From assembly GCA_017965445.1 (NCBI GenBank), contig JAGCPZ010000044.1, positions 1-36,204 of the forward strand: DNA of 36,204 nt, given 5' to 3'. This document shows, piece by piece, positions 7,180-25,482 of the stretch (position 1 is the first letter of the stretch; each line of letters starts with the position of its first letter). The position numbers and the translations under genes were made by a program. Under the pieces are notes generated by a model, which was given only the letters and a program-made list of their open reading frames with translations, was not told the DNA's origin and did no database searches. Origin of the DNA: Fibrobacter sp. Lineage in GTDB: Bacteria > Fibrobacterota > Fibrobacteria > Fibrobacterales > Fibrobacteraceae.

Positions 7180-7208
7180 TTGACTTTTTGAAATTTATGG
7201 TGTATATT
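7180..7208 (+). promoter_or_regulatory. Promoter of regulator-lipoprotein operon 1
   Basis: TTGACT (7180-7185) and TATATT (7203-7208) are 17 bases apart. The preceding TTGTAAAACTA and A/T-tracts recur in front of the other operons and could be an UP element or a regulator site. Confidence 0.8.
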
Positions 7209-7217
7209 TGTTGTCAA

Positions 7218-7243
7218 GAACGAGAGGAAAAATTCCTCAGTTC
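7218..7243 (+). promoter_or_regulatory. Leader hairpin of operon 1
   Basis: GAAC (7218) pairs with GTTC (7240), and GAGGAA (7224-7229) pairs with TTCCTC (7233-7238) across an AAA loop. The hairpin itself contains a GAGGAA ribosome-site-like arm. It starts about four bases after the expected transcription start. Confidence 0.55.
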
Positions 7244-7291
7244 GAATATTAAGCGCACTTGAAAAAGAGTTGTCGCGTGTTAGGAGGAAAA

Positions 7292-8122
7292 ATGAAAGAA
7301 ATCTTAGAATATACGAGCTATCGTCAGTATATTGCAGATTACTATGCCGATAAAAAGACGAAATCTGCGTTTACTTGGCAAGAGTTCGCAAACGAAGCCG
7401 GTTTTTCTTCGCGTGTTTATCTGAAATACGTGAGCGAAGGCCGCTTTAATTTGAGCGATGCCGCGACTGTTCGTGTTGCGGATGCCATGCGTCTGGCGGA
7501 TTACGAACGCGAATATTTCACCGAAATGGTCAAGTTCGACCACGCCAAAACGGATGCCGAAAAGAAGGCTGCCTTCAACAAAATGCTTGCCATTGCCGAT
7601 GCGCACAAGGCCAAAATTCTAGAAGGCGATTCGTTCCGCTTTTTTGAAAGTTGGAAAAATCCGGTTATCCGCGAATTGGCTCCATCAATGCCTGGCGCAA
7701 AGCCGCTTGCGCTTGCCCATGCCTGCCGCCCAGAAATTACCGCCGCCGAGGTCAGCGATGTGCTGAACTTCCTCGTCAAGGGCGGATTCCTTGAAAAAAA
7801 CGACGAAGGCAATTACGTACAAACGGACAAATCCTTGACGACGGGCCCTATGGGGGTAACGCCGGTCGCGGTTCGCTCGATGCACCGCCAAATGGGCGAA
7901 CTCGCGCTTGACGCAATCGAGGGTGTAGCTCAGGACAAACGAAATTTTTCTGGTGTCACGTTTGGCATCACCAAAGACGGCTACGACGAAATCGTACAAG
8001 AAATTGCCGATTGCCGTAAAAGGGTTGTCGCCATTGCTCGGAAAAATGCAACAACAGACGAAGTCTATCGTCTGAATATGCAACTTTTCCCGCTGACAAA
8101 GAAACAGGAATTAAAAAGATAG
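7292..8122 (+). CDS. TIGR02147-family regulator, copy 1
   Basis: A 276-residue cytoplasmic protein of the TIGR02147/DUF4423 family, typical of Fibrobacter and found beside FISUMP genes. The N-terminal third holds an Xre-like helix-turn-helix (FTWQEFANEAGFSSRVYLKYVSEGRFNLS split over residues ~27-55). The C-terminal part is the family block with ELAPSMPGAKPLALA (~129) and HRQMGELALDAIEG (~202). The start is ATG 7292, not the in-frame upstream codon at 7259, because TAGGAGG lies 4 bases before it and the four paralogues all begin MK(D/E)-LEY. It is 14 bases upstream of the lipoprotein gene and shares its operon. It is the most diverged of the five array copies toward its C-terminal end. The likely role, DNA binding at its own or sister promoters, is inferred. 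Confidence 0.88.
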   Translation: MKEILEYTSYRQYIADYYADKKTKSAFTWQEFANEAGFSSRVYLKYVSEGRFNLSDAATVRVADAMRLADYEREYFTEMVKFDHAKTDAEKKAAFNKMLAIADAHKAKILEGDSFRFFESWKNPVIRELAPSMPGAKPLALAHACRPEITAAEVSDVLNFLVKGGFLEKNDEGNYVQTDKSLTTGPMGVTPVAVRSMHRQMGELALDAIEGVAQDKRNFSGVTFGITKDGYDEIVQEIADCRKRVVAIARKNATTDEVYRLNMQLFPLTKKQELKR

Positions 8123-8136
8123 TGTAGGAGGACAAA

Positions 8137-10089
8137 ATGAATTACTCAAAGTTTAGCAGGACTTTTGTCTGCAAAATGGCGATGCTGCTCGCCTTTATGT
8201 TCGCAGCATGCTCAGAAACGAATTCAGGAAACAATGTTGCCGGCGGCACTGTTGAAGAAACTGGCGTTTACGCCTTATCGGGCCGCGTGGGTGATGTGTA
8301 TCCTAAATTGCTTGCGAAGGAAGGCGATAGTTCGGCAAATATCCAAAATGACGAAGGTTCCCTGTATGCTGCGAAAGGAACCGTTGTGACTATTTACGAA
8401 CTGGATTCGTCATCTCTTGCGGCCACAGGTCGTACGTTTGTAGATACGATTGATAATGATGATGGTCGTTTTTCGTTCGAGAACCTTACCTTGAATAGCC
8501 CGTATGTATTGATTGAAACGCTTGATTCCTGCATCACCAAAAATTGTCGTGAGCGTGCTGGTGCGTGGGGCTTTACGACCGATCTTCCTACGAAATTTGA
8601 TTCAACTGGAGCAATGAGTGTATATGGATCGCAAAAATATCCGGTTTTGAGGAGCGCTATTGTTGACTTGAAAAAGTATAAGAAGATAAGCGTCAATACG
8701 TTGTCCAATAAAAAGGTCCCGCTAGTGCGGGCGTACTTTGCCGAAGGAAAGTCGTTTGCGGAGGCCAGCAAAAAGGCTGAACAGGACATTCTTGAAAACA
8801 TAGGCATTTACGAAGATCTTGGATGCTTTGAAGACCTGGAAAATGAAGAATTGAATTATGTTAGGGCATTGTACTTGGAAATTTCTGAACTTGACGATTT
8901 GGGACGTGAAGTTGGAGATGAAATAAAAAATGAATTATTGGGTTATAATTTTATCTGGATCTATAAAGAAGTTTACTTTGCGCCTTTGTCGCGATTCTCT
9001 GCGTCAGAAGAAATGCAGCAATATTATTTGAATACAATAAAGTTGTTCGAATATGAGGTTGGTTATTTGGCTCATAAGGTTGGCTTGGGACAATGTACGG
9101 AATTGCGTGAAAACGATGTAGATACTATTGCGATTCGTGAATTTTATGAATTGCCCAAGTTCGCAGTCGCCTGCCAGTCAAAAAAATGGGTGGTTGATTC
9201 CAAAAAGGCTTCATACACAAGTGGAACGATGGTGGACAATCGCGATGGAAAAACATATAAGACCGTTACGTATAACTGGGGTGATGTCACGCAAACGTGG
9301 ATGGCCGAAAATCTGAATTTTGCGGATACGGTGTCTTCAAGTGTTGATAGTACCTTGAAAAAGAATTTGCTTGGAAAAACGAATTGCTGGGAATACGATC
9401 CGTCATGTGAAAAACTGGGCCGTTTTTACAAGTGGACTGCGTTTATGAATATTGATGAATCTTCTCTTAAGTTGAAAGCCGATGTTTACGACTATGTGTT
9501 GGGTAATAGGGATATGATGCTAAAAACGGAGTCTGTTGAAGATCGGTGCTTGACGGTTAAGTATGATTTGCGTGCGTATGAAGATGAAAGTAATAGGATT
9601 GAATATTGCCGTATTAGAACTGAAGCGGGTGAATGTTATGAATTAGATACTGCTAGAACGTTGTGGGATTATTGCTACCATAAATATGTAAATGGAATCT
9701 ATTTTGATAGTTCGAGTGTTATCCCTGAATCGGAACTTGCAACTTATCAGGGCGTGTGCCCAGATGGATGGCGAATCCCCAATAAAGCTGATTGGGATCT
9801 CTTGATTGAAAACATGGCAAGTCAAGGAGTCTTGTTAAAGGACGCTGATGCGAGTGGCTTTGGGAATATTGAAGGAAAAGTTGTGGAATCCTATGGTTCG
9901 GGAGTTCCTAGGCCGAACGTGATAACATACGGTTACTATACATTTGCCTCGGTTCTGGATCAAGATGGTAGTTTTGTCCATGTTGGCAAGAGCGAGCAAA
10001 CGCCTCTTTTGGGTACTGCATCCTATAAGAAACGCCTCTTCGACCTTTTTAACTCTGAGTTTTTCGTTGTCCGCTGCATCAAGAATTAA
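8137..10089 (+). CDS. FISUMP-domain lipoprotein, copy 1
   Basis: A 650-residue surface or periplasmic lipoprotein: signal peptide with lipobox ending FAAC (Cys25). After a short linker comes a GRVGDVYPKLL block, a beta-rich segment (TIYELDSSSL...FVDTIDNDDGRFSFENL, ~87-115) resembling carboxypeptidase-regulatory-like folds, and a helical segment (YFAEGKSFAEASKKAEQDIL). The FISUMP domain runs from ~362 (GTMVDNRDGKTYKTV, TQTWMAENL) to the end, with the hallmark GVCPDGWRIPNKADW at ~538 and the VRCIKN terminus. Many cysteines in the domain may form disulfides. TAGGAGGACAAA precedes the start. Its signal peptide type (MNYSK...FVCKMA) is shared with copy 5, but its body is like copies 3 and 4. Function unknown. 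Confidence 0.88.
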   Translation: MNYSKFSRTFVCKMAMLLAFMFAACSETNSGNNVAGGTVEETGVYALSGRVGDVYPKLLAKEGDSSANIQNDEGSLYAAKGTVVTIYELDSSSLAATGRTFVDTIDNDDGRFSFENLTLNSPYVLIETLDSCITKNCRERAGAWGFTTDLPTKFDSTGAMSVYGSQKYPVLRSAIVDLKKYKKISVNTLSNKKVPLVRAYFAEGKSFAEASKKAEQDILENIGIYEDLGCFEDLENEELNYVRALYLEISELDDLGREVGDEIKNELLGYNFIWIYKEVYFAPLSRFSASEEMQQYYLNTIKLFEYEVGYLAHKVGLGQCTELRENDVDTIAIREFYELPKFAVACQSKKWVVDSKKASYTSGTMVDNRDGKTYKTVTYNWGDVTQTWMAENLNFADTVSSSVDSTLKKNLLGKTNCWEYDPSCEKLGRFYKWTAFMNIDESSLKLKADVYDYVLGNRDMMLKTESVEDRCLTVKYDLRAYEDESNRIEYCRIRTEAGECYELDTARTLWDYCYHKYVNGIYFDSSSVIPESELATYQGVCPDGWRIPNKADWDLLIENMASQGVLLKDADASGFGNIEGKVVESYGSGVPRPNVITYGYYTFASVLDQDGSFVHVGKSEQTPLLGTASYKKRLFDLFNSEFFVVRCIKN

Positions 10090-10116
10090 AGTAATGACAA
10101 CTTAACGGAAATACTG

Positions 10117-10161
10117 TTAGGAGGAAAAAGGAGACGGGCTGCGGCCCGCCTTCTTTTTTTT
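10117..10161 (+). terminator. Terminator of operon 1, preceded by an AGGAGG sequence
   Basis: CGGGC-TGCG-GCCCG (10135-10148), extended by flanking purine/pyrimidine pairing, is followed by TTCTTTTTTTT. TTAGGAGGAAA directly precedes it, as in the other operons. Confidence 0.9.
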
Positions 10162-10166
10162 GCATT

Positions 10167-10273
10167 GTCACCCCGGCCTTGTTCCGAGGCTGTTAACACG
10201 GAATAACTGATGCCGGCACGGTGGCCGGCATGACAGCGTGAAGATGTCATCCCGGCCTTGTGCCGGGATCACC
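10167..10273 (+). repeat. Second copy of the GTCATCCCGGCCTTG palindromic element plus a short copy
   Basis: GTCACCCCGGCCTTGTTCCG followed by GAGGCTGTTAACAC, the hairpin TGCCGGC (10211-10217)/GCCGGCA (10224-10230) and TGACAG repeats the element at 6935-7004 almost base for base. A short palindromic copy (GTCATCCCGGCC...GGGATCACC) occupies 10246-10273 and may stop transcription of the convergent GSCFA gene. Confidence 0.85.
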
Positions 10274-10275
10274 TT

Positions 10276-11358
10276 TTACACGTTTAACTCAAGTCCCGCA
10301 ATTTGCGTCTCGAGCTTTGTGGCTTCTTCGAGCATTCTTTGTCTGAATTCCACAGTGGCGGGTGAATGTTCATCTTGAATTCTGTGTTTTGCCATTTTCA
10401 GGAACTTCTCGACTTGCTTGATGTTGTCGCGAGTTTTGCCATCGCAGTAAGCTTCTGTCATGCGCTCGAAGATGTACTCTTCGGCAGTTTTGGACAAGTG
10501 AACCATGTCGCTGTCGTAAAAACGGTAGTCGCGCAGTTCGTCCATTACAATTTCGTAACTCGGGAAGTAGCTGATGGTGGGTGTCGGTATTCCCACATCA
10601 TTGCGCAGAGCGCATGACTGGTTCGCCTCGGCGATGGAAATGTGAACATTTCCGCCGCGCTCGGCTCCTACGTCATTGCGCGGAGCAATCTCTTGAATAA
10701 CTTTATCAATAGCGAGTTGCAGTGTCGCTTTCGAAAGTGTGTTTGCGTGCGCGCCGTCGCTCAAGTGCCGTAGCGGCGAAACCGTGAAGACAATTCGCAT
10801 ATCGTATTTTATTTTCTGCAGATCTTGCACGATGCTTTTCAGTGCCGCTACTACGTGATCTACGGAAATCATTTTGCGTATGAACAAATTGGGGTTTTGC
10901 TGGTGGCAATTCGAAACGGCCGCCCCGATGTCCTTCAAGAAATACACGAATGAAGTCCCGAGCGTGATGAATGTGACATCGGTCTTTTGCAAAAATTCCA
11001 GCGTACGGGTCGAGGCTTCGTTTAGCTTCGCGACGCAGTCTTCACGGGTCGCCGCCGAAAGTGAACCGTGCGCATCCCAGCAATGCCAAAGGGCGTTGCT
11101 CCCCGTGCGATCAGGACGCATGTCCTGAAAAATTTCTGGACCTCCAAAAACTTTCTTATTCGCGATTGCCTTGATTTGCATTGCAATGGAGAGCGGATTA
11201 TACACCGTTCCAAAGGGATTCGTCAAAACATTGAATTTCCTCGATGCAAATTGCGCCGAAATATTGTCGGCGAAACACGAACCGAAAAAAGCGATGTGAG
11301 AATTGTAGTCGATTTGCCAATCTGTGGCGGGAATGTCGATTTTTGTGAAAAAGTCCAT
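10276..11358 (-). CDS. GSCFA-domain protein (SGNH-hydrolase-like)
   Basis: The start chosen is the ATG at 11358 (MDFFTKIDIPATDW); a TTG 13 codons upstream lies in poly-T DNA and adds residues not seen in the family. The 360-residue protein carries the eponymous GSCFA motif (FFGSCFADNI, ~25) followed by NPFGTVYNPLSIA, then FTVSPLRHL and YFPSYEIVMDELRDYRFYDSDMVHL, all family hallmarks. GSCFA proteins resemble SGNH esterases, common in the Bacteroidota/Fibrobacterota. No signal peptide is evident. Odd: about 35 residues between IQEI and ISYFPSYE read APRNDVG...CALRNDVG, and correspond to palindromic repeat DNA inserted in frame. It is the only minus-strand gene inside the lipoprotein array. Confidence 0.85.
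   Translation of the reverse strand: MDFFTKIDIPATDWQIDYNSHIAFFGSCFADNISAQFASRKFNVLTNPFGTVYNPLSIAMQIKAIANKKVFGGPEIFQDMRPDRTGSNALWHCWDAHGSLSAATREDCVAKLNEASTRTLEFLQKTDVTFITLGTSFVYFLKDIGAAVSNCHQQNPNLFIRKMISVDHVVAALKSIVQDLQKIKYDMRIVFTVSPLRHLSDGAHANTLSKATLQLAIDKVIQEIAPRNDVGAERGGNVHISIAEANQSCALRNDVGIPTPTISYFPSYEIVMDELRDYRFYDSDMVHLSKTAEEYIFERMTEAYCDGKTRDNIKQVEKFLKMAKHRIQDEHSPATVEFRQRMLEEATKLETQIAGLELNV
10595..10695 (-). repeat. Palindromic repeat insertion within the GSCFA reading frame
   Basis: On the minus strand the stretch reads GAGATTGCTCCGCGCAATGA, then after a spacer TGCGCTCTGCGCAATGATG. Both resemble the widespread intergenic repeat usually written GATTGCTTCG...CTCGCAATGACG. The insertion is in frame and encodes two RNDVG peptides. 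It splits a conserved family block, so it looks like a later insertion. Confidence 0.6.
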
Positions 11359-11403
11359 GAAAAAAAATATAAAAACTTTTTTTGTGTGCGTAACCAAGTC
11401 GGA

Positions 11404-11642
11404 TTTACATACTAAAAAGCCATTTTTACTTTTTAGGATATAATTGAAGTTTTGTTACTTTGTTTGTTTACATACTAAAATTACTTTTGTGGCTTTTAGT
11501 ATGTAATTATTGCGGCAAAATTCAGCTTTGAAGTCGATTTTGAAGGGATTATGTCGAAAAAGTGTGCTTTATAACCCTTTTTAAGCTTTTTTCTGCCTGG
11601 TTTTACATACTAAGATGTCGAATTTCTTGTTTTAGTATGTAA
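11404..11642. repeat. Three hairpins built from TTTACATACTAAAA and its complement
   Basis: Pair 1: 11404-11418 with 11430-11443 (two mismatches). Pair 2: TTACATACTAAAA 11468-11480 with TTTTAGTATGTAA 11494-11506, 13 bases perfect. Pair 3: TTACATACTAA 11603-11613 with TTAGTATGTAA 11632-11642, perfect. Loops are about 11-18 bases and differ in sequence. They lie in the 559-base gap 11359-11917, whose remainder is AT-rich DNA plus the operon 2 promoter. No coding potential is evident. Confidence 0.75.
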
Positions 11643-11811
11643 CGCGGTAAAATAATGGGCTTTCCCCGTGTGGATAATGGCGTTAGACTCTCCAACGCCG
11701 GCAATATAACTCAAATTTAAAATTTCATATTGTAAAAACTAACGATTTTTAGATATTTAATAAAAATCTTTAAAATTTTAATAAAAATCAATAAAATATA
11801 TTGTAAAACTA

Positions 11812-11840
11812 TTGCTTTTTTAAAAATGATGTGTTATATT
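11812..11840 (+). promoter_or_regulatory. Promoter of operon 2
   Basis: TTGCTT (11812-11817), 17-base spacer, TATATT (11835-11840). The TTGTAAAACTATTG block upstream is shared with operon 1; the -35 differs at one position from the sister promoters. Confidence 0.75.
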
Positions 11841-11850
11841 TAGAGTATCG

Positions 11851-11906
11851 ACAAACGGCCCGCTAGAACAATTGTCAGAAAAAGTTGCTAGAAGAGGCCG
11901 TTTTGT
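11851..11906 (+). promoter_or_regulatory. Leader hairpin of operon 2
   Basis: ACAAACGGCC (11851-11860) pairs with GGCCGTTTTGT (11896-11906) with one bulge. Inside, CTAG at 11863 can pair with CTAG at 11888. The right arm ends two bases before the GGAGG ribosome site, so folding could affect translation. Confidence 0.6.
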
Positions 11907-11917
11907 AAGGAGGAAAA

Positions 11918-12751
11918 ATGAAGGATATACTTGAATACAGGGACTACCGCCAGTATATCGCAGACTATTACGCCGATCGCAAGGCGAAGTCCGCGTTTTC
12001 TTGGCAGGAGTTCGCCAAAACGGCGGGATTTTCGTCGCCGGTTTACCTTAAATATGTGAGCGAGGGCCGCTTCAACTTGAGCGAAGAGGCCGCCGGACGC
12101 ACGGCAAAGGCTATGCGTCTTGCGGATTTCGAATGCGCGTTCTTTGTCGAAATGGTCAAGTTCGATCATGCGAAGAACGATGACGAAAAGCGGGCGGCGT
12201 TCAGCAAAATGATTTCGATTGCGGATGCGAACAAGGCGAAAATCCTGGAAGGCGAATCGTTCCGCTTTTTCGCAGACTGGAAGAATCCGGTGCTCCGTGA
12301 ACTGGCTCCCGCCATGCCCGGCGCAAAGCCGTTGGCGCTCGCTCATGCCTGCCGCCCGGAGATCTCTGCTGCCGAAGTCAGTGAATCGCTGAACTTTCTG
12401 GTCAAGGCGGATTTGCTCAAGAAAGATAAAAACGGCAATTACGCACAAACGGATAAGGTCGTAACGACCGGCCCGATGGATGTTACGCCGCTTGCGGTCC
12501 GCGGGATGCACCGCCAGATGGGCGAGTTCGCGCTCGACGCTATCGAGAGCGTGCCGCAGGACGAACGCCATTTTTCGGGCCTTACGCTTGGCATCACCCG
12601 CGAAGCGTACGAAGAAATCGTGCAGAGAATTGCCGAGTTCCGCAAGGACATCATCGCGATTGCGACACGTAAACCTGCGACAGACGAAGTCTATCGCTTG
12701 AACGTGCAGTTCTTCCCGATGACAAACAAAAGTTTAAACAAAAAGGACTAG
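11918..12751 (+). CDS. TIGR02147-family regulator, copy 2
   Basis: 277 residues, starting after TAAGGAGGAAAA. The helix-turn-helix segment (GFSSPVYLKYVSEGRFNLS, ~45-63) is identical to copy 3. The C-terminal family block (ELAPAMPGAKPLALA, HRQMGEFALDAIE) is nearly the same as in copies 3-5. It ends KSLNKKD, and its TAG stop is part of the AGGAGG ribosome site of the lipoprotein gene 9 bases downstream, which makes coupled expression likely. GC-richer than its lipoprotein partner. Confidence 0.88.
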   Translation: MKDILEYRDYRQYIADYYADRKAKSAFSWQEFAKTAGFSSPVYLKYVSEGRFNLSEEAAGRTAKAMRLADFECAFFVEMVKFDHAKNDDEKRAAFSKMISIADANKAKILEGESFRFFADWKNPVLRELAPAMPGAKPLALAHACRPEISAAEVSESLNFLVKADLLKKDKNGNYAQTDKVVTTGPMDVTPLAVRGMHRQMGEFALDAIESVPQDERHFSGLTLGITREAYEEIVQRIAEFRKDIIAIATRKPATDEVYRLNVQFFPMTNKSLNKKD

Positions 12752-12760
12752 GAGGAAACC

Positions 12761-14353
12761 ATGAAAAACTTCAATCGTAACACGCTTATGCGTGATTTTA
12801 TCGGGGCGGCGTTCTGCTTGACGATGGCGTTTGCCCTTCTCATGATATATTCGGGTTGCTCCGAAGACAGTTCTCCGATAAACGGTGCCCATGGCGGAGC
12901 CGCCGAAGAACAAGGTGTGTATGCCAGTCTGGAAAACTTGACGATTTCCGGGATGGCCAAAATAGCTTTGGCAAGCCAAGGCGGAGGACTCCCACAGATT
13001 GACATGCGGGGTCTTGAAATAGGAACCGTGATTACCCTTTATGAACTTGATTCAATATCATTCACAAATACAGGCGTCGTACTTAAAGATACCATCGTGA
13101 ATGACAGTGGAGACTTCTCGTTCCAGAATGTGACCTTGACAAGTCCATACATCCTTATTACGGCAGAAAGACCTTTTCCTGAAACCGAATACGCCTATAG
13201 CGTCTTTGCCGATGTACGCGATACGGGAAAAGTACAAATTAACGTATTGACACATCTGGAGGCCCTGCGCTCCCTGCATCTTGTGAAAACGGGAATTGGA
13301 TTTTCACAAGCAAAGCAACAGGCTAGAACAGAAATCTTGAACGCTTTTGGCATCTATGGATTGTCTGATAATATCATGAACGAAGACCCCATGGAATATA
13401 CGGCATTGATTTATGCGTTATCCGTTGTCTTGCCTACGTATGACCATGAAGGGATATATCCTGAAAACCTGATATTTGGAGGTGAACCTCTCGAAATGCT
13501 TTTTGACGCTATTGCCGAGCATGGTTCGTTCCAAAATATTGATGTATCAGTGGATTCAGGTTTCGTGGACATCGTTAACGCCAATATCAGCCTTGTGCAA
13601 CTTACCTTAGCAACTCCGTACGAATACTTCGAACAAACTGGAGAAGAAGGAGTTCGTTTTTACAGGACAGAACAACGTATGGTGGAATATTTTGCAAATA
13701 TGTTGTCTGTTGTATTTGGCATTGGACGCTGCGACCAAACTCGCGAAGGAGAGACTTTCGATGCTCCTGAACCGGATTATAGTCAATCCAGTATTATAGG
13801 TTACGATTTGGTGTGCCGTTCAGGAAGCTGGCGGTTGACGATACCTGAAATGGAACATACCGAAGGGACGATGACAGATGCGCGCGATGGAAAAACGTAC
13901 AAGACGGTCTCGTACCTTATCGATGGTGACTCGGTGACTTGGATGGCGGAAAACCTGAGATACAATGCGCAAGAAGGTTCGTCGTGCGATGAAAAATGGA
14001 GCTTTGCCGAAGGCTGCTTCTACTCGAACGAAGCTTTGATGGGTAGCGTGTGTCCTGATGGATGGAAACTGCCAAAATCAACCGATTGGGAGAAACTTGT
14101 GTCGTCTGTACGAAATCATTATGGTCTTCCCGAACGATTTGAACTCCTTCACCTGTTTGACTTGGCGGATTTGGGGAATCCCCTGGGTTTTGGTTTGACA
14201 TCTCGATTCGGTTATTCTGGACCAGGGTTGGCGATGGATCCGGATGGAAAAGATGCAGAAGTAGGCGATCTCGCCATAACTTTACCTGTAGCGGTGGAAT
14301 ACGGATATTCAGAGCCGTCAGAATGGCTGCCAGTCCGCTGCATCAAAAATTAA
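12761..14353 (+). CDS. FISUMP-domain lipoprotein, copy 2 (short form)
   Basis: 530 residues. Signal peptide of the MKNF-NTL type with lipobox YSGC (Cys33), as in copies 3 and 4. The following body is of the ASLENLTISG type shared with copies 5 and 6, so the gene is a mosaic. The beta-rich block (ITLYELDSISF...DSGDFSFQNVTL) is followed by helical segments. FISUMP starts near 368 (GTMTDARDGKTYKTV, VTWMAENL); the long variable insert seen in other copies is missing, so CPDGWKLPKSTDW (~430) follows only about 50 residues later. Ends VRCIKN. Probably a surface lipoprotein; function unknown. Confidence 0.87.
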   Translation: MKNFNRNTLMRDFIGAAFCLTMAFALLMIYSGCSEDSSPINGAHGGAAEEQGVYASLENLTISGMAKIALASQGGGLPQIDMRGLEIGTVITLYELDSISFTNTGVVLKDTIVNDSGDFSFQNVTLTSPYILITAERPFPETEYAYSVFADVRDTGKVQINVLTHLEALRSLHLVKTGIGFSQAKQQARTEILNAFGIYGLSDNIMNEDPMEYTALIYALSVVLPTYDHEGIYPENLIFGGEPLEMLFDAIAEHGSFQNIDVSVDSGFVDIVNANISLVQLTLATPYEYFEQTGEEGVRFYRTEQRMVEYFANMLSVVFGIGRCDQTREGETFDAPEPDYSQSSIIGYDLVCRSGSWRLTIPEMEHTEGTMTDARDGKTYKTVSYLIDGDSVTWMAENLRYNAQEGSSCDEKWSFAEGCFYSNEALMGSVCPDGWKLPKSTDWEKLVSSVRNHYGLPERFELLHLFDLADLGNPLGFGLTSRFGYSGPGLAMDPDGKDAEVGDLAITLPVAVEYGYSEPSEWLPVRCIKN

Positions 14354-14371: not shown

Positions 14372-14417
14372 GTTGGGAGGAAAAGGAAGACGGGGTTCGC
14401 CCCGCCTTCTTTTTTTG
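14372..14417 (+). terminator. Terminator of operon 2, preceded by a GGGAGG sequence
   Basis: CGGGG-TTCG-CCCCG (14391-14404), a very stable UUCG tetraloop, then CCTTCTTTTTTT. TTGGGAGGAAAAGG stands in front, parallel to the other operons. The loop and stem differ from the TGCG versions elsewhere while pairing is kept. Confidence 0.92.
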
Positions 14418-14512
14418 TTTTGATATATTGTAAAAAATACTTGATTTTTTTCTAATTTTTCGTAAAAATGCTAAAATTTAATAAAAAACTGAATTTTATA
14501 TTGTAAAAACTA

Positions 14513-14540
14513 TTGACTTTTTTGAAAATGATAGTATATT
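14513..14540 (+). promoter_or_regulatory. Promoter of operon 3
   Basis: TTGACT (14513-14518), 16-base spacer, TATATT (14535-14540); TTGTAAAAACTA directly upstream as in sister operons. The remainder of the 254-base gap is terminator 2 and AT-rich DNA. Confidence 0.8.
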
Positions 14541-17366: not shown

Positions 17367-17414
17367 CTGTAGGGAGGAAAAGGAAGACGGGCTGCGGCCC
17401 GCCTTCTTTTTTTG
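17367..17414 (+). terminator. Terminator of operon 3, preceded by a GGGAGG sequence
   Basis: GAAGACGGGC-TGCG-GCCCGCCTTC with a T-run to 17414; TAGGGAGGAAAAGG stands directly in front. Confidence 0.9.
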
Positions 17415-17518: not shown

Positions 17519-17547
17519 TTGACTTTTTTGAAAAATGATTTTATATT
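17519..17547 (+). promoter_or_regulatory. Promoter of operon 4
   Basis: TTGACT (17519-17524), 17-base spacer, TATATT (17542-17547). The TTGTAAAACTA block upstream is more diverged here (GGTGATGTA). Confidence 0.8.
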
Positions 17548-17606: not shown

Positions 17607-18440
17607 ATGAAGGATATACTTGAATACACAAGTTATCGTCAATATATTGCGGATTATTACGCCGAGAAAAAGGCTAAATCCGCGTTCACTTGGCAAGAGT
17701 TTACCCGGGCGGCGGGCTTCTCTTCGCCGGTTCATCTAAAATATGCAAGTGAAGGTCGCTTGAACTTGAGCGATGCTGCTGCATTGCGTGTGGCGAAGGC
17801 CATGCACCTTGTCGATTTCGAACAAGAATATTTTTGCGAGATGGTCAAGTTTGACAACGCAAAGACGGATTCCGAGAAAAAAGACGCTTTTGGCAAAATG
17901 CTTTCAATCGCGGAAGCTCACAAAGCGAAAATCCTAGAGGGCGATTCATACCGCTATTTTGAAAGCTGGAAAAATCCTGTGCTCCGCGAACTTGCCCCTG
18001 CGATGCCGGGCGCAAAGCCACTTGCGCTTGCGAAAGCGTGCCGCCCGGAGATTACGGCCGCCGAGGTCAGCGAATCGCTTAATTTCCTCGTCAAGGCGGA
18101 CTTGCTCCACAAAGATAAAGATGGAAATTATGTACAAACAGAAAGGGGCGTGACGACGGGTCCGCTGGACGTGACTCCTGTGGCTATTCGCGGGATGCAC
18201 CGCCAGATGGGCGAGTTTGCGCTGGATGCCATCGAGGGCGTCGCCCAGGACGAACGTCATTTTTCGGGACTTACGCTAGGCATCACGCGCAAGGCTTATG
18301 AAGATATTGTTCAAGAAATCGCAGAGTTCCGCAAGAGGATTATTGCGATTGCGACACGGGAAGACGGTACGGACGAAGTTTATCGCCTGAATGTGCAGTT
18401 CTTTCCGATGACAAAAAAGAGTGTCAATAAAAAGGTCTAG
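17607..18440 (+). CDS. TIGR02147-family regulator, copy 4
   Basis: 277 residues after TTAGGAGGAAACA. The helix-turn-helix recognition region carries changes (HLKYASEGRLNLS instead of YLKYVSEGRFNLS), so its DNA specificity may be shifted. C-terminal blocks ELAPAMPGAKPLALA and HRQMGEFALDAIEG intact; ends KKSVNKKV. Its TAG stop lies within the AGGAGG of the lipoprotein gene 9 bases on. Confidence 0.88.
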   Translation: MKDILEYTSYRQYIADYYAEKKAKSAFTWQEFTRAAGFSSPVHLKYASEGRLNLSDAAALRVAKAMHLVDFEQEYFCEMVKFDNAKTDSEKKDAFGKMLSIAEAHKAKILEGDSYRYFESWKNPVLRELAPAMPGAKPLALAKACRPEITAAEVSESLNFLVKADLLHKDKDGNYVQTERGVTTGPLDVTPVAIRGMHRQMGEFALDAIEGVAQDERHFSGLTLGITRKAYEDIVQEIAEFRKRIIAIATREDGTDEVYRLNVQFFPMTKKSVNKKV

Positions 18441-18449
18441 GAGGAAAAC

Positions 18450-20474
18450 ATGAAAAATTTCAAACGAAACACGTTGATATGTGATTTTATAGAAGCAGCA
18501 ATCTGCTTGATTATGGCGTTTGTGCTTCTTATGATATATACGGGCTGTTCAGAAGACGCCGGCCAGTCTCCCGTTGCGCATGAAGGCGGCTACACGGAAG
18601 AACAGGGCGTTTATGCCTTGGTCGGTCAGGGAGGCAATGTTTATCCTAAGTTGTTGAAAATGCGTTCGGATGAAAGTGGAATGGCTGGCGATCCTCAAAA
18701 TGTTAAAGGTTCTTCGTTTGCTAAAAAGGGAACGCCTGTAGTCGTTTACGAATTGGACTCCTTGACTCTTGTGGGTACTGGTCGCACTTTTGTGGATACG
18801 GTTTACAACGATAATGGACAATTTGCGTTTGAGAAACTTTCGCTGAATAGTCCGTACGTTTTGATTGAAATCAAGGATTCCTGTACGGCCTACGAGGGCT
18901 GGAGACGGGGTCTGTGGAGCGATTCTACCTATCCTATGTCGTACGAAGTTCCGTGCAATTATGATTCGCTCGAGGCTCTGGGTGGTGCGTTGCCTTCCAG
19001 TTGCGGAATTACAGATACTACAAAGTATCCGGTTCCTTTAGGAGCTCTTGTCGATTTGCGGAAATATAAAGAGATTAGCGTTAATTCGTTAACTTATATG
19101 AAGATTCCGCTTGTGAAAAAATACGTTGGCGAAGGAATGAACTTTGCTGCGGCGAGCAAGAAAGCGGAATCGGAAATTTTGGAAGGTTATGGAATCTATG
19201 AGGATTTGGGAAATTTTGAAAGTCTGGAGAGCGTGAATGGAGATTTGTCTTATGTATTGCATATGGTTTTCCGCATGATGCGCAGAGGCTCCCCTTTCGA
19301 AGTTGGACTTAGTGATGATATGGAGTTTTTCTATGGCGTATCGCCAGCCGCTGTCGCCGCCTTGGGTGAATCCGCGGAACAGTACTATCTGAATACGCTT
19401 AAGTCGCTGGAGTATGAGATTGCCTATTTTGCCCATGTGAAGGGTTATGGGCAATGTACGGAATCCCGTGAAAATGAAACACACAGTGTTATGGATCAGA
19501 GCGGAAACGAGTGGTTTGGATTATTCGTGTCATCGGCTTCGATAGTTTGTCGTTCGAAAAAATGGGTGCAGGGATGGAAAAAGATTGATTTCGAAAGTGG
19601 ATCGATGGTCGATAATCGTGACGGTAAAACGTATAAGACTGTCACGTATAACTGGGGTGGTGTTACGCAGACGTGGATGGCTCAGAGTCTTAACTATGTA
19701 GATACGGCGTCTGCAGGTGCTGATAGCGCGTTGAAAAGTAATTTGCTTGGAAAAACTAAGTGCGATAATGGAGATCCCACTTGTGAAATATATGGTCGTT
19801 TTTACATGTGGCATGCAGCTATGAATCTTGGCATGTCTGACCTTAACCTGACTTCAGCCTTGCTACGTGATATTGTGTATGAAGACGAAGATGATGAAGG
19901 AACGGAAATTTGGGATACCGTAGCCGTGGAGAAAGTATGCTTGGCCGCCGATAGAAACGATAGTACGAAGTATGAATATTGTTCTGGGGAATCGGAAACG
20001 GGCGAATGCATGGCCCGTGATACCGCAAGATCTGTATTCGAATACTGCCGTTTTAAATATGAAAGCTGCCGTTTAGATTATTCTGCGTTTACTCGACAAT
20101 CGGGACGTGTGGTCCATCAAGGTGTGTGCCCGGATGGATGGCGTATCCCCAATAAAGAAGATTGGGAACTTTTAGCAGAAAACGTATCCAAGCAGGGGGC
20201 CATCCTTGGTGACGCGGGTGGAAGTGGCTTTGGATATATGGATTTGACGACTATGTATTTTGTAGATGGGGAAACTCCTGAACTAAGGATGGATTATAAA
20301 AAGGTTGGGCCTGGTTTCGCATCTGTTCCTGATGTGAATGATGCTCGTGAATTTGCTTATGTCTTCTACGTTTCAGGTAAATTCTCTACTGGCTCATCGT
20401 CTGAGTATTATTACGGGAATATAGGATTTGATGATCTTTATAGGGATGTTTACGTCCGCTGCATCAAGAACTAG
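18450..20474 (+). CDS. FISUMP-domain lipoprotein, copy 4
   Basis: 674 residues. MKNF-NTL signal peptide with lipobox YTGC (Cys33); then VGQGGNVYPKLL, VVYELDSLTLVGTGRTF, DNGQFAFEKLSLNSPYVL and the helical block GEGMNFAAASKKAESEIL. FISUMP from ~384 (GSMVDNRDGKTYKTV, TQTWMAQSL; Q-S replaces the usual E-N) with a long insert closely related to that of copy 1 (GRFYMWHAAMNLG, CLAADRN, GECMARDTARS), then GVCPDGWRIPNKEDW (~558) and VRCIKN. Together with copy 1 it forms a sub-family for the FISUMP half. Function unknown. Confidence 0.88.
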   Translation: MKNFKRNTLICDFIEAAICLIMAFVLLMIYTGCSEDAGQSPVAHEGGYTEEQGVYALVGQGGNVYPKLLKMRSDESGMAGDPQNVKGSSFAKKGTPVVVYELDSLTLVGTGRTFVDTVYNDNGQFAFEKLSLNSPYVLIEIKDSCTAYEGWRRGLWSDSTYPMSYEVPCNYDSLEALGGALPSSCGITDTTKYPVPLGALVDLRKYKEISVNSLTYMKIPLVKKYVGEGMNFAAASKKAESEILEGYGIYEDLGNFESLESVNGDLSYVLHMVFRMMRRGSPFEVGLSDDMEFFYGVSPAAVAALGESAEQYYLNTLKSLEYEIAYFAHVKGYGQCTESRENETHSVMDQSGNEWFGLFVSSASIVCRSKKWVQGWKKIDFESGSMVDNRDGKTYKTVTYNWGGVTQTWMAQSLNYVDTASAGADSALKSNLLGKTKCDNGDPTCEIYGRFYMWHAAMNLGMSDLNLTSALLRDIVYEDEDDEGTEIWDTVAVEKVCLAADRNDSTKYEYCSGESETGECMARDTARSVFEYCRFKYESCRLDYSAFTRQSGRVVHQGVCPDGWRIPNKEDWELLAENVSKQGAILGDAGGSGFGYMDLTTMYFVDGETPELRMDYKKVGPGFASVPDVNDAREFAYVFYVSGKFSTGSSSEYYYGNIGFDDLYRDVYVRCIKN

Positions 20475-20498
20475 ATCTGTCGGGACGCGTTGGAAATA

Positions 20499-20546
20499 CT
20501 GTTAGGAGGAAAGGGAAGACGGGCTGCGGCCCGCCTTCTTTTTTTT
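20499..20546 (+). terminator. Terminator of operon 4, preceded by an AGGAGG sequence
   Basis: TTAGGAGGAAAGG, then GAAGACGGGC-TGCG-GCCCGCCTTC and eight or more T. Confidence 0.9.
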
Positions 20547-20680
20547 GACCATTGACCAATATCTGCTGATTTACGACTTTAAACTACTTTATATGTATCA
20601 CAGAAAATGACGAAAATTTAAAGAAAATGGCAAAAATGCTGAAAATTAAGTAAAAAAGGTAAATTTTTATCATAAAACTA

Positions 20681-20709
20681 TTGACTTTTTGTTTTTTATG
20701 GTTTATATT
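20681..20709 (+). promoter_or_regulatory. Promoter of operon 5
   Basis: TTGACT (20681-20686), 17-base spacer, TATATT (20704-20709); upstream ATAAAACTA as in operons 1-3. The rest of the gap 20475-20768 is terminator 4 and AT-rich DNA. Confidence 0.8.
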
Positions 20710-20721
20710 TAGGAAACGAAG

Positions 20722-20750: not shown

Positions 20751-20768
20751 TTGTGTTAGGAGGAATCA

Positions 20769-21602
20769 ATGAAGGATGTACTAGAGTACTCGGATTATCG
20801 CCAGTACATTGCGGACTATTACGCCGAGAAAAAGGCTAAATCTGCGTTTACTTGGCAGTCGTTTACACGGGCGGCCGGTTTTTTTTCGCCTGTGTTCCTT
20901 AAGTACGTGAGTGAAGGGCGCTCCAACTTGAGCGAAGATGCGGCGGGCAACGTGGCCGCGGCAATGGGCCTTCTCGGCTATGAACAAGAGTATTTCTGTG
21001 AAATGGTCAAGTTCGACCGTGCAAAAACGGACGACGAAAAAAAGTTTGCTTTCAATAAAATGCTGGCTATTGCCGAAATGCATAAAGTGAGGGTCGTCGA
21101 GGGCGATTCTTTCCGCTATTTCGAAAGCTGGAAGAATCCCGTGCTCCGTGAACTTGCCCCTGCGATGCCTGGCGCAAAGCCTTTGGCGATGGCGCGTGCA
21201 TGCCGCCCTAAGATTACTGCTGCCGAAGTCAGCGAATCGCTGAACTTCATGGTCAAGGCGAATTTGCTCCAGAAGGACAAAGACGGAAATTACGTACAGA
21301 CCGAAAAATCGGTGACGACGGGCCCTATGGCGGTGACGCCTGTTGCGGTTCGCGGGTTGCATCGCCAGATGGGCGAATTTGCGCTGGATGCGATTGAGGG
21401 TGTACCGCAGGACAAACGCCATTTCTCGGGCTTAACGCTCGGCATTACTCAAAATGCTTATGACGAAATTGTTCAGGAAATTGCCGAATTCCGCAAGAAA
21501 ATTATCGCGATTGCGACAAGGGAAGACGATACGGACGAGGTTTACCGTCTGAATGTGCAATTTTTCCCGATGACGAAAAAGAGCGTGGATAACAAGGGTT
21601 AG
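20769..21602 (+). CDS. TIGR02147-family regulator, copy 5
   Basis: 277 residues after TTAGGAGGAATCA. The helix-turn-helix segment has the largest number of changes in the array (GFFSPVFLKYVSEGRSNLS; SS to FS, Y to F, F to S). Family blocks ELAPAMPGAKPLAMA and HRQMGEFALDAIEG present. It ends KKSVDNKG, close to copy 4. Nine bases separate it from the first of two lipoprotein genes. Confidence 0.87.
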   Translation: MKDVLEYSDYRQYIADYYAEKKAKSAFTWQSFTRAAGFFSPVFLKYVSEGRSNLSEDAAGNVAAAMGLLGYEQEYFCEMVKFDRAKTDDEKKFAFNKMLAIAEMHKVRVVEGDSFRYFESWKNPVLRELAPAMPGAKPLAMARACRPKITAAEVSESLNFMVKANLLQKDKDGNYVQTEKSVTTGPMAVTPVAVRGLHRQMGEFALDAIEGVPQDKRHFSGLTLGITQNAYDEIVQEIAEFRKKIIAIATREDDTDEVYRLNVQFFPMTKKSVDNKG

Positions 21603-21611
21603 GAGGATAAC

Positions 21612-23636
21612 ATGAATTACTCAAAAATGTGCGAACAGTTTGTTTGTAAAATGGCTGCGTTGCGATTCTTTTTGTTTGCGTGTTTGGCCATTGCCTTGAA
21701 CTTCGCCATCGCGACGCTCTTTGCGGTGCTCTTTGTGGGGTGCTCAATGGGTGGCTCGACTGAAGAGACTAGCCAGTCTATAGGCGGCCCATCTGAAAAC
21801 CCGGGCGTTCAAGCTTCGCTTGAAAATATTTCGGTGAAGGGGCTTGCCATGGTGGGTGCACGGCCAGAACCTCTTGATTCGGCAAAACCGGAAATGGGCG
21901 TGTCTGTCAGCGGAATGCCGAAGGGTTCCGTAGTGACGCTTTACGAACTGGATGCCGATTCTCTCGAAAGGACGGGGGTGTCCTTCGCGGATACGATTGA
22001 TAACGATGGCGGCATGTTCGATATTCAGGGCGTGACGCTAAAGTCCCCGTATGTGTGGATTACGGCTGTTGAAAGAAATGGCCTGACCATGAATGTTGAT
22101 GGTTCTTGGGGGGAACGGCATGATGATGTACTTAGCGTGAATGCGATTGTTGATGTCAGGGATTCGTCTCCTGTCACTGTTGACGTGTTCTCTGATTTGG
22201 TGGCTTATCGAGTACGGGTCCTGATGCTCGTCGGGAATGATTTTGCGGACGCCATGGCGCAGGCCAAACGGGAAATTCTCGAAGCGTTTGGAACCTACGG
22301 TGTTGCTTTCGACAGCTTGGATCGTACGGGCCTGGATTACTATGCGATGCAGTCGGTATTTGTAAGGGTTGTATTTTGTTTGTATGGTTCCGGGAACCTC
22401 ATGGCTAGCGCCCCAATCTCGAAATCGTTTGAACAGACGGGATCCTTCTTAAGAGAAAAAGAAGAAGTGAAACGTGGAGTGAGGACGGTCTTTAATGATT
22501 TGAGATTTAAACTGAGCATTCCTCAGGGGGTTTACGAAAAAATGGGGCCCCAAGTGGCAAGGGAATACCAGGCGATGCTGCTTTATGAAAAATACCTTGC
22601 GGGAATGATGTCTGTGATGCTCGATGCCGGACGCTGCACCGCTGAACAGGAAGGAACTTCTGTAGATGCATCCGAAGGATATCGCAGTTCCTCTGAAGCA
22701 ACATTCCGTATTGTCTGCCGTTCGGGAAACTGGCATTTGGCTTATGAACAGGTTCCGCATACTTTTGGTACGATGACGGATGCTCGTGATGGCCATGTTT
22801 ACAAGACAGTGACTATAGACTTTGGCGACAAAACGCAGACTTGGATGGCCGAGAACTTAAATTACAAGGGCGTCACGACAAATTGCCTTGGCGGTCATGA
22901 ACAAAATTGCGATATCTACGGAAGTCAATATGATTGGCATGTAGCGATGGGACTTAGTGACTCTATCTTTTTGGTTGAATTTGCTTCCATGCAGGAATGC
23001 ATTGACTCCTTGTCTCCGCGATATTCGACAACACCGATGCCGTATGATTCCGTGTATATCGAAAAGTGCATTGCGGGATTACAGGAACCGGATTCTACCG
23101 ATATTGAAAAATGCAAGTATTATGGTGGTGGAATTCCTGTCAATTACGACTCCTTACGAGCTGTGTATGATATTGAAATACAGGAACGTTGTGAGGAATA
23201 TATGAGTGCATCGGCAAGTTTTATCGATGCTGGAAAGGTGAACATGGACAGTCTCGCAATCACTCAGGGCGTGTGCCCGGATGGCTGGAGAATCCCCAAT
23301 TTTGACGATTGGGAGGCTATCTTCGGATATATTGACCGTAAATGGCGTTCTAATGTCGAAGGGAGGTTCTTGCTTGCAGCCCCCTCTATAGAGGATCCTT
23401 TTGGATTTAACTTGTACAATACTGTCGAAATGGAATGGGACGGCGATAGATCGTTATTGATTAAAAGAATGCTGGGAGACTATATCATGATATCCAAAAG
23501 TGACGATAGGTATAGGCCTCGGGCTGGCTTCGTCAACATGACGGAGGTGATTAATACGTCATATAGGTTTAATTATGATGCCGTCGGGATTGACGCTTTC
23601 TTCAGGAACTTGTTTGTCCGTTGTATCAAGGATTAA
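21612..23636 (+). CDS. FISUMP-domain lipoprotein, copy 5
   Basis: 674 residues. The start (MNYSK...FVCKMA) is like copy 1, but the hydrophobic stretch is long and the lipobox (LFVGC, Cys44) late. The body is of the ASLENISVKG type (as copies 2 and 6), followed by VTLYELDADSLERTG and NDGGMFDIQGVTLKSPYV. FISUMP from ~387 (GTMTDARDGHVYKTV, TQTWMAENL) with a cysteine-rich insert, then GVCPDGWRIPNFDDW (~553) and VRCIKD. No terminator separates it from the next lipoprotein gene, so both are probably read from the operon 5 promoter. Confidence 0.87.
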   Translation: MNYSKMCEQFVCKMAALRFFLFACLAIALNFAIATLFAVLFVGCSMGGSTEETSQSIGGPSENPGVQASLENISVKGLAMVGARPEPLDSAKPEMGVSVSGMPKGSVVTLYELDADSLERTGVSFADTIDNDGGMFDIQGVTLKSPYVWITAVERNGLTMNVDGSWGERHDDVLSVNAIVDVRDSSPVTVDVFSDLVAYRVRVLMLVGNDFADAMAQAKREILEAFGTYGVAFDSLDRTGLDYYAMQSVFVRVVFCLYGSGNLMASAPISKSFEQTGSFLREKEEVKRGVRTVFNDLRFKLSIPQGVYEKMGPQVAREYQAMLLYEKYLAGMMSVMLDAGRCTAEQEGTSVDASEGYRSSSEATFRIVCRSGNWHLAYEQVPHTFGTMTDARDGHVYKTVTIDFGDKTQTWMAENLNYKGVTTNCLGGHEQNCDIYGSQYDWHVAMGLSDSIFLVEFASMQECIDSLSPRYSTTPMPYDSVYIEKCIAGLQEPDSTDIEKCKYYGGGIPVNYDSLRAVYDIEIQERCEEYMSASASFIDAGKVNMDSLAITQGVCPDGWRIPNFDDWEAIFGYIDRKWRSNVEGRFLLAAPSIEDPFGFNLYNTVEMEWDGDRSLLIKRMLGDYIMISKSDDRYRPRAGFVNMTEVINTSYRFNYDAVGIDAFFRNLFVRCIKD

Positions 23637-23645
23637 GGGGGATAT

Positions 23646-25415
23646 ATGTTTAGTTGGAATAAAATAATTTTGGGCTGTGCTGCGGTGATGCTTGTGTTCG
23701 GCGCTTGCTCCAATGAAGATGCTAGTGCTGTTGCTCCGGTTGGTGCGCAAAAAGTGGAATCCGGGGAAAATGCCGCGAAGGTGGGCGCGGTCGAAGATTT
23801 GAGCAACGCCCATATAGAGGGCCGTGCGGTCAATTTGTCGGATATGGACAATGGCCAGAAATTCGAGTATCACAGTTACGAAATGGCATCCAAGGTGAGG
23901 GTGTATGAACTTGATTCGGTAACGCTTGATACGACAGGGACCATTTGGAGAGGCTTTGTTTTCGATACGAATGGAAACTTCCGCTTTGACAGCTTGTCGT
24001 TAAATAGTCCCTTTGTGATGATTGAAACGGAACCGACAAAAAGCTCTCATTTGCAAATTAGCCCCAGGTTGATTGTTGACGTTCGAAAAACGAATAGCGT
24101 ATGCGTCAACATGCTCACGTATCTCGAAAGCTTCCGTTTACGTCACTTGGTCCAGACGGGTGTGCCTTTTGATTCCGCAAAGGCTATGGCGCAGCGTGAA
24201 GTCCTGGATGCTTTCGGCTTGTACGATGAATCTCCTGATTATGAGAAGAAAGACAATGAGCATGCTCAGGATTATTTGAATTTTACAGGATTCTTCTTCA
24301 AAAATATATTTATGGATTCCGTAGCGGAATCGTTTAGCCAAAGCGGATTGTTAAGAGGTCTCGATAGCTGGTCTATGCAATCGCTCATTAGCTGGGCTTC
24401 TAACACGGTAGAGGCTAATGGCAATAGTTTGGAAATTCCTTATGAGTATTACGAAGCCATAGGTAGGACGGACTATTATCAGCATTTGTACAAGCAGGTG
24501 AATTTTGCGATAAATTTCTTGTCGGCTTTGCATGGCCTAGGCAAATGTACTGCAAATATTGAAGGTACCGATTACGAAATCTCGGATGGCTACTTCACCC
24601 TCAGATGTAGTGACAATCAGTGGAAAATTTCATGGAACGGATTCAAGAAAATTGACTATTCCGTGGGGACGATGACGGATAACCGTGACAGGAAAACGTA
24701 CAGGACGGTTACATACAACATTGAAGGAACCCCGCTGACGGTGATGGCAGAAAATTTAGACTTCGGTGATGGCACCCATAAGGAATGGTGTTTCGAAGCC
24801 AAGCCAGAAGATCCCAATCTATATGCGCTCGAGTTGCGTAATGTTCGCCCCGCTGAATCTTCGGGTTGCGGTACCTATGGTGGCTTGTATAGGGCTTTTG
24901 ACGCTTTGTCGCTAGATACGACGTTCTTGGTAGAAAATGCGTTTGATACATGCGTTGCCAATTATCAAAAATACTGGCAGGGCGATGGACCGGTCGTTAT
25001 TGATTCTAATGAACTTCGTGAGACTTGCTATTACGTTTATTTGGACGAAACGAAAATTACGAAATGGGCAGATTCTGTTGAAACCGCTAATGGCCATATC
25101 CAGGGAATTTGCCCTGATGGGTGGCATATTCCTTCAGTTAATGAATGGAAAACTTTGTGGTCGCATTTGAATGGCTCGAATATTGGTGAATCTCCGTTCT
25201 GGGACCCCTCGGGTTTTGCGTTGAAATATGTAGGCCAAAAAGAGGAACGGGACGATTATCTTGGAATTGATAACGAAATTTATTTTGCGACGAAACCCGG
25301 ATCTATTTCCGAGTATGACAACTGGTTATGGTCTTGGACGTATCATGCGGGGAGTGCAGATTATGGTTACGGTATAGCCGTTGTGACCTCGTTCGTCCGC
25401 TGCATGAAAAATTAA
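23646..25415 (+). CDS. FISUMP-domain lipoprotein, copy 6 (no regulator of its own)
   Basis: 589 residues starting 9 bases after copy 5, with ribosome site GGGGG. Short signal peptide, lipobox VFGAC (Cys21), unlike the other two signal types. VRVYELDSVTLDTTG and FDTNGNFRFDSLSLNSPFVMIE keep the beta-rich block. FISUMP from ~341 is the most altered: GTMTDNRDRKTYRTV (R for G) and LTVMAENL (for QTWMAENL), then GICPDGWHIPSVNEW (~488) and VRCMKN. It is either a tandem duplicate that lost its regulator or a second component of the copy 5 system. Confidence 0.86.
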   Translation: MFSWNKIILGCAAVMLVFGACSNEDASAVAPVGAQKVESGENAAKVGAVEDLSNAHIEGRAVNLSDMDNGQKFEYHSYEMASKVRVYELDSVTLDTTGTIWRGFVFDTNGNFRFDSLSLNSPFVMIETEPTKSSHLQISPRLIVDVRKTNSVCVNMLTYLESFRLRHLVQTGVPFDSAKAMAQREVLDAFGLYDESPDYEKKDNEHAQDYLNFTGFFFKNIFMDSVAESFSQSGLLRGLDSWSMQSLISWASNTVEANGNSLEIPYEYYEAIGRTDYYQHLYKQVNFAINFLSALHGLGKCTANIEGTDYEISDGYFTLRCSDNQWKISWNGFKKIDYSVGTMTDNRDRKTYRTVTYNIEGTPLTVMAENLDFGDGTHKEWCFEAKPEDPNLYALELRNVRPAESSGCGTYGGLYRAFDALSLDTTFLVENAFDTCVANYQKYWQGDGPVVIDSNELRETCYYVYLDETKITKWADSVETANGHIQGICPDGWHIPSVNEWKTLWSHLNGSNIGESPFWDPSGFALKYVGQKEERDDYLGIDNEIYFATKPGSISEYDNWLWSWTYHAGSADYGYGIAVVTSFVRCMKN

Positions 25416-25429
25416 TCCCTCTAATTGAG

Positions 25430-25482
25430 TGTTAGGAGGAAAGAGGGATAGAAGACGGGTTGAGGCCCGCCTTCTTTTTTTG
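25430..25482 (+). terminator. Terminator of operon 5, preceded by an AGGAGG sequence
   Basis: TTAGGAGGAAAGAGG, then GAAGACGGGT-TGAG-GCCCGCCTTC and a seven-T run. Closes the two-lipoprotein operon. Confidence 0.88.

Follow-up and report, generated by a model that had tools for sequence, protein, structure and literature searches.

The DNA analyzed here is a contig (C39) of 36,204 nucleotides (nt), in the following called the window, from a draft genome of Fibrobacter sp. (2.76 Mb, 79 contigs, 72% complete). It carries an array of five operons (op1 to op5), in each of which the gene of a predicted DNA-binding protein of the TIGR02147 family (NCBIfam model, cut-off 50 bits) is followed by a gene for a predicted lipoprotein matching FISUMP (TIGR02145, cut-off 41.65 bits). 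The pairing of such a regulator with a lipoprotein is found far beyond the array. Several regulator types can be distinguished, in which a short word at the promoter goes with the predicted type of recognition helix, and because of this match each such pair is likely controlled by itself and apart from most others.

The five operons of the array

All five operons lie on the plus strand. In op1, the promoter TTGACT-17-TATATT (7180-7208) and a leader with a predicted hairpin and AGGAGG (7215-7291, start approximate) precede the regulator (7292-8122; predicted recognition helix SSRVYLKYV, with arginine at position 41, Arg41), a FISUMP lipoprotein of 650 amino acids (8137-10089), and a block of post-stop AGGAGG and terminator (10118-10163). 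The promoter of op2 is TTGCTT-17-TATATT (11812-11840), followed by a regulator with the predicted helix SSPVYLKYV (11918-12751), for which a structure model was included, a FISUMP lipoprotein of 530 amino acids that scores above the NCBIfam and below the Pfam cut-off (12761-14353), and GGGAGG with terminator (14373-14417). The same helix recurs in op3 (promoter TTGACT-16-TATATT, 14513-14540; regulator, 14609-15442), which encodes a FISUMP lipoprotein of 629 amino acids (15453-17342) and ends in GGGAGG and a terminator (17370-17414). Next come op4, with promoter TTGACT-17-TATATT (17519-17547), a regulator with helix SSPVHLKYA (17607-18440), a FISUMP lipoprotein of 674 amino acids (18450-20474), and AGGAGG with terminator (20502-20547), and op5, with promoter TTGACT-17-TATATT (20681-20709), a regulator with helix FSPVFLKYV (20769-21602), two FISUMP lipoproteins of 674 (21612-23636) and 589 amino acids (23646-25415), and again AGGAGG with terminator (25432-25482).

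The first-pass annotation had described five such regulator-lipoprotein units, and most of its description stood. The gaps between the regulator and the lipoprotein, given there as 9-14 bases, measure 14, 9, 10, 9, and 9 nt; AGGAGG lies ahead of each of the five regulators, and an AGGAGG-like sequence with a GC-rich terminator follows the last lipoprotein of every operon. Of the promoter type TTGACT-TATATT claimed for all five, the -10 element is present throughout, whereas the -35 element is found in four (op2 has TTGCTT); the spacer is 16 nt in op3 and 17 nt in the other four. The proposed leader hairpin is a real and modest effect, with z between -1.0 and -3.3 against shuffled sequences for the five leaders and a mean of -1.29 over 62 leaders, 36 of which are below -1. 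No Rfam family reached its gathering score between 7000 and 25600 of the window. Among the corrections to that description, op5 contains two lipoproteins, and the control region begins about 100 base pairs (bp) further upstream, with the distal word of op1 near 7082-7099.

The four array regulators that were scanned score 303-313 bits against TIGR02147, and all five are among the 33 proteins of the genome above the cut-off; the six array lipoproteins score 58-94 bits against TIGR02145. The regulators are 71-82% identical to each other and the lipoproteins 27-48%. Among the matches listed, the 120th homolog of the regulator is still 87% identical, and the lipoprotein homologs are at 41% by the sixth match, in a search that scored only candidates sharing most words. 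A near homolog in F. succinogenes S85 is FSU_1478. The post-stop AGGAGGA (at 10118, 14373, 17370, 20502, and 25432) looks like a Shine-Dalgarno sequence without an open reading frame (ORF), just 5' of the terminator. Among the relatives, it is mainly a trait of the array clade, being found in 46 of 60 array-clade operons versus 10 of 52 other operons.

A regulator-lipoprotein module across the class

For comparison, 15 genomes of the same genus were searched, and named contigs with the most similar regulators were also used; these contigs are from Fibrobacter, several of them from rumen or other gut samples. Altogether, 198 unique regulators were obtained from the window genome, 24 relatives, and the named contigs. 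A scan of genome contigs kept 75 loci labeled Fibrobacter or Fibrobacterales with one exception, a contig labeled Treponema sp. UBA4326 (locus L162), which carries an Arg41 regulator of the array type that is 71% identical to that of op2 and is perhaps a mis-binned Fibrobacter contig.

The window genome has 33 matches to TIGR02147 and 56 to FISUMP. According to our own sequence rule (signal peptide plus lipobox-like cysteine), a lipoprotein-like ORF lies 3' of the regulator on the same strand in 33 out of 33 cases. Across the full set, a lipoprotein starts at most 20 nt after the regulator in 194 of 198 loci versus 7 of 111 control genes taken from part of these loci (22 of 111 when gaps up to 170 are allowed). 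The claim that each lipoprotein has a predicted DNA-binding protein of its own encoded next to it thus holds far beyond the five operons for which it was made. The rule recognizes 196 of the 198 partners; an earlier, stricter version had recognized 131 of 137. The two exceptions come from another genome (L101 and L102, at 3443 and 742 of the oriented loci), where an intact regulator is followed by a lipoprotein that begins and breaks off early, leading in L101 straight into the AGGAGG-terminator block. In 33 loci from more remote representatives of the class and order (L041-L049, L190-L213), most rows have a lipoprotein partner, usually with a 4-nt overlap. The script assigned no lipoprotein to L190, L211, and the truncated second regulator of L208, and took the wrong frame in L042; inspected by eye, the partners in L190 and L042 are lipoproteins and that in L211 is a membrane-anchored secreted protein. 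Summed over 25 genomes (~84 Mb), there are 619 TIGR02147 matches; a genome has some 12-45 paralogs.

All 33 first partners of the window genome were scanned against Pfam. FISUMP was detected in 11 (the array five, L006 twice, L007, L017, L018, and L020), a carboxypeptidase-regulatory-like match in seven (three above the cut-off), and the carbohydrate-binding domain CBM_4_9 in one (L005); two have weak matches only, and 12 have none at an E value of 0.01. Because only a third of the first partners contain it, FISUMP represents one ectodomain among several in the module, which across the class consists of a regulator and a lipoprotein rather than a regulator and FISUMP. In many partners of the window genome and in distant class members (L191-L207), a motif approximating AG-x-S-x-E-T-x-N-G follows the lipid-anchor cysteine and could be a sorting signal. 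Its strict form occurs in 47 of 196 partners and in none of 13 other lipoprotein-like ORFs, which is only suggestive of specificity since these 13 include at least one miscounted partner (L010).

FISUMP has been counted among accessory attachment genes (PMC4704652), was found in variable proteins of diversity-generating retroelements (PMC4159848), and one FISUMP protein of strain S85 is listed among envelope proteins (PMC4619616). Passages from Fibrobacter papers list or count FISUMP proteins and do not describe a pairing with a regulator. As to a retroelement in the genome studied here, which is 72% complete, no RVT_1 match was obtained; template repeats were not searched for. These data bear on a possible function of the module as a recombination cassette, in which the regulator and the AGGAGG-terminator block would flank a fast-changing lipoprotein for swapping, duplication, or deletion, with regulation being secondary. 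The similar array regulators next to diverged lipoproteins, the truncated lipoproteins behind intact regulators in L101 and L102, and the post-stop AGGAGGA of the array clade fit such a cassette. We nevertheless consider it unlikely, as it leaves the match between word and helix (see below) unexplained and no reverse transcriptase family was matched in the incomplete genome.

Two kinds of regulator transcripts are predicted. With regulator starts set by a hidden Markov model, 42 of 137 regulators have a TATATT-like -10 element at a distance of exactly 7 nt from the start codon (background of 1.9 per position), and 10 each have it at 6 and at 8 nt. By rule, 64 of the 137 appear leaderless, none of them among the 29 regulators with a Shine-Dalgarno sequence; 18 shifted windows give 2-16. 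With so short a distance (6-8 nt) from the -10 element to the start codon, nearly half of the regulators are predicted to have a leaderless mRNA. The array five differ from this type in having 59-83 nt between the -10 element and ATG and a leader with AGGAGG.

Paired words, recognition helices, and control of the operons

Many regulators are preceded by two copies of a word of about 8 nt, which have the same orientation and are 70-74 bp (about seven helical turns) apart. The inner copy lies at, on, or just upstream of the -35 element, and the outer one frequently forms an inverted repeat, for example TGATACATTTGTATCA. The words vary and include GTGTTCCC, TTGTATTC, ATGTTCT, TGTACT, TTTGTATC, TTTGTTTC, TATATTGT, TTGTGTTG, and others. 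In 27 anchored promoters of the window genome, lag 73 was the strongest among lags 40-130. A strong repeat at lag 69-75 was present in 34 of 82 non-redundant promoters of the 25 genomes (drawn from 100 anchored ones, of 137) versus 3-11 in 13 control windows. The signal of a best-match test was weaker when the lag was not fixed (sum of 234 versus a mean of 215.7 with a standard deviation of 7.3; 163 of 20000 permutations at or above).

In the array, op1 has the word GTGTTGT, with a distal copy in an inverted repeat (7082-7099) and a proximal copy (7157-7172); the repeat is at lag 73 and the pattern match spans 7092-7172. TATTGT is shared by op2 and op3, whose pairs of ATTGT words lie at 11729-11807 (lag 71) and 14427-14507 (lag 73), and op4 and op5 have other words. 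The array would thereby comprise about four word/helix types, namely op1, op2 with op3, op4, and op5. The earlier idea of shared control signals of one system could not be upheld in this form: the core promoter is common to the operons, but the upstream words are not and differ with the residues of the predicted recognition helix. In a first Mantel test on 44 regulators, residues 38-50 (the helix) gave a partial r of 0.12 (6 of 2000 permutations at or above); when the test was repeated on 80 regulators, the correlation with the word lay mainly in residues 1-60.

Such a correlation might also reflect shared descent only, if operons were duplicated together with their promoters and the regulators had their targets elsewhere or none. 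Words and helices would then be inherited together, and the C-terminal domain does correlate with the word as well (r of 0.49). This is, however, quite improbable given that the upstream sequence diverges outside the words, yet the fixed lag and the words persist, that the correlation is concentrated in residues 1-60, and that the 25 genomes hold hardly any other occurrences of the word patterns. The latter was seen when four operator patterns were scanned against all 25 genomes (~84 Mb), with reversed patterns as controls. The op2/op3 pattern ATTGTRAA-N58-70-ATTGTRAA had 11 matches and no control matches; at 10 of these sites, a TIGR02147 gene with the helix SSPVYLKYVSEGRF follows at 71-110 bp. 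Of eight matches to the op1 pattern TGTRTTGT-N61-69-TGTGTTGY (no controls), six precede a regulator, all with Arg41. TGTACTAT-N60-68-TGTACT matched seven times (one control), each time before a regulator with VSPSYLK[DMT]VC, and TGATACNNNNGTATCA lies 116 bp before a regulator with [TI]SP[ST]YLKLVC at four of five sites. Summed up, 27 of 31 sites are at TIGR02147 promoters, with the expected helix type in 27 of 27. The patterns were built from promoters fetched earlier, and therefore 19 of the 31 sites are returns of known DNA; among the 12 sites first obtained by the scans, eight are TIGR02147 promoters with the expected helix (L215, L218, L225, L231, L236, L238, L239, and L244), and the other four are not TIGR02147 promoters. 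In the window genome, the op2/op3 pattern is found at op2 and op3 only, and TGATACNNNNGTATC is confined to two operons whose regulators share one helix.

Judging from the DNA, the pairs typed by word and helix are probably autoregulated operons, whose regulator would bind its own promoter and few others. The regulator, probably as a dimer, would read the inverted repeat through its lambda-repressor-like N-terminal domain, and two bound dimers could assist each other across about seven turns. Binding would most likely activate transcription, so that the operon reinforces itself and regulator and lipoprotein rise together. In the array, duplication with changes in the helix would have yielded about four keys for five operons (one shared by op2 and op3), each driving a strongly diverged FISUMP lipoprotein. 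Activation is more likely than repression because promoters with the word on the -35 element lack a -35 hexamer: in these promoters, 28 of the 80, the best -35 sequence averages 3.2 mismatches to TTGACT (27 of 28 with at least three), in contrast to 0.7 in the other 52. It is, on the other hand, possible, though rather doubtful, that the operons are auto-repressed and inducible. Looping between the paired words would then hold the operon down until a ligand of DUF4423 releases it, making the lipoproteins separately inducible by their own substrates. A distance of 70-74 bp suits a small loop, 52 of the 80 promoters have a near-consensus -35 element that needs no help, and the winged-helix part resembles AdcR, CzrA, and MarR, which are mostly repressors, but a repressor does not need the word to replace the -35 element in the 28 promoters, and no ligand is known.

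Several observations weigh against autoregulation through type-specific words. A confident word pair was identified in just 14 of the 33 regulators of the window genome, with 12 different 8-mers (one of low complexity), and of the 153 promoters that could be anchored for the 198 regulators, only 80 have one; at the sixth pair of the window (described below) and in the distant clades, no word pair was found. Both op4 and op5 are below the repeat threshold and could be typed only through their relatives. The effect in the Mantel test is small, the reverse test also gave a signal (0.095, 80 of 3000), positive windows start at residues 196, 256, and 261 as well, and shared descent was removed only in part. 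GTGTTG is not specific for Arg41, as regulators with SSSVY have it in two of three cases, and SSLVH has TATC, not TATG. The palindrome TGATACNNNNGTATCA had five sites versus three for its reversed control, and four of the 31 sites are elsewhere, L214, L235, and L237 inside open frames and L226 before the gene of another secreted protein. The missing -35 hexamer follows partly from the word occupying the same place. In L226, an operator-like TGATACGTTTGTATCA, a possible target in trans, directly precedes the ribosome binding site of an ORF whose predicted product is secreted and no lipoprotein; no TIGR02147 gene lies nearby.

Autoregulation with activation could have a further consequence for the cell surface, which we put forward only tentatively. 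Each paralog would read its own word and lock its own operon on, so that members of a clone show different combinations of lipoproteins with unchanged DNA. The array would be a birthplace of new keys by duplication and one or two changes in the recognition helix (e.g., Pro41 to Arg). The anatomy of the operons is compatible with self-reinforcing switches and does not demonstrate them.

Other features of the window and known systems

A sixth, divergent TIGR02147-lipoprotein pair without FISUMP is located at 31551-33646 on the plus strand. Its regulator (31551-32414, 186.8 bits) overlaps by 4 nt with a predicted lipoprotein of 411 amino acids with a carboxypeptidase-regulatory-like domain (32411-33646), and no relative of this regulator was found in viral contigs. 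Between op1 and op2, there is a GSCFA-family gene on the minus strand (10279-11397), and the interval from it to op2 contains several inverted copies of the word TTACATACTAAAA / TTTTAGTATGTAA (11405-11645), which look like operators of another regulator. A weak AbiH-like match is present at 574-1785 (22.9 bits, under the Pfam cut-off of 30.9), and the minus-strand protein at 26495-28657, which has propeller repeats as well as a PorV-like portion (31 bits versus a cut-off of 27), is a possible component of type IX secretion. Between genes, short inverted sequences that are rich in GC (GTCATCCCGGCC... and similar) recur at 7000-7060, 10160-10275, and 25483-25530 and look like repetitive extragenic palindromic (REP)-type repeats.

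The five array regulators belong to TIGR02147/DUF4423 (PF14394) and the six array lipoproteins to FISUMP/Fib_succ_major (TIGR02145, PF09603). The entries of the former state neither function nor partner; a proteome table includes one member from Bdellovibrio, the DUF4423 protein Bd3700 (PMC12546842). In open-licence literature, no description of the pairing was found, and searches with the names TIGR02147 and FISUMP returned no paper, although absence from this subset of papers is weak evidence. What is new here for TIGR02147/DUF4423 is the constant lipoprotein partner and the operator words. A testable function can be offered for a large paralogous family as well as a reason why so many Fibrobacter lipoproteins are accompanied by their own regulator. 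With its many natural helix-operator pairs, this single genus offers ready material for deciphering a DNA-recognition code and for studying how insulation between duplicated regulators arises. Should the switches prove self-reinforcing, surface differences between single cells would become directly testable in a rumen fiber degrader.

The closest known systems include HigA and other lambda-repressor-like helix-turn-helix regulators. A sequence search of the PDB gave a best match at an E value of 0.032 only, and Foldseek gave no match at 0.001 or better. An adjacent toxin gene as in HigBA-like toxin-antitoxin systems is lacking: the partners are secreted, and no toxin family appeared in the Pfam scans of the 33 first partners. 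The closest working analogue are the controller (C) proteins of restriction-modification systems such as C.PvuII and C.AhdI, as described in two papers (PMC2997769, PMC5333194); C.AhdI ranks 19th among the fold matches (E value of 0.19). In both cases, the regulator gene (autogenous in C systems and probably here) comes first and the effector next, with their ends overlapping or close, and distal and proximal sites (here putative) are present at the promoter. Leaderless transcripts, as in C proteins, are predicted here for 64 of the 137 regulators and for none of the array five. The overlap of the PvuII genes did not couple their translation (PMC2997769), and no translational coupling is therefore claimed here. 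Membership in the C protein family was ruled out by size, winged-helix part, and lipoprotein partner. Unlike the small single-domain C proteins, the regulators here have about 277 residues with an added winged-helix part, and instead of a cotranscribed restriction endonuclease, the partner is a predicted lipoprotein (33 of 33). Their putative sites are separated by 70-74 bp, and each genome has tens of paralogs with different words.

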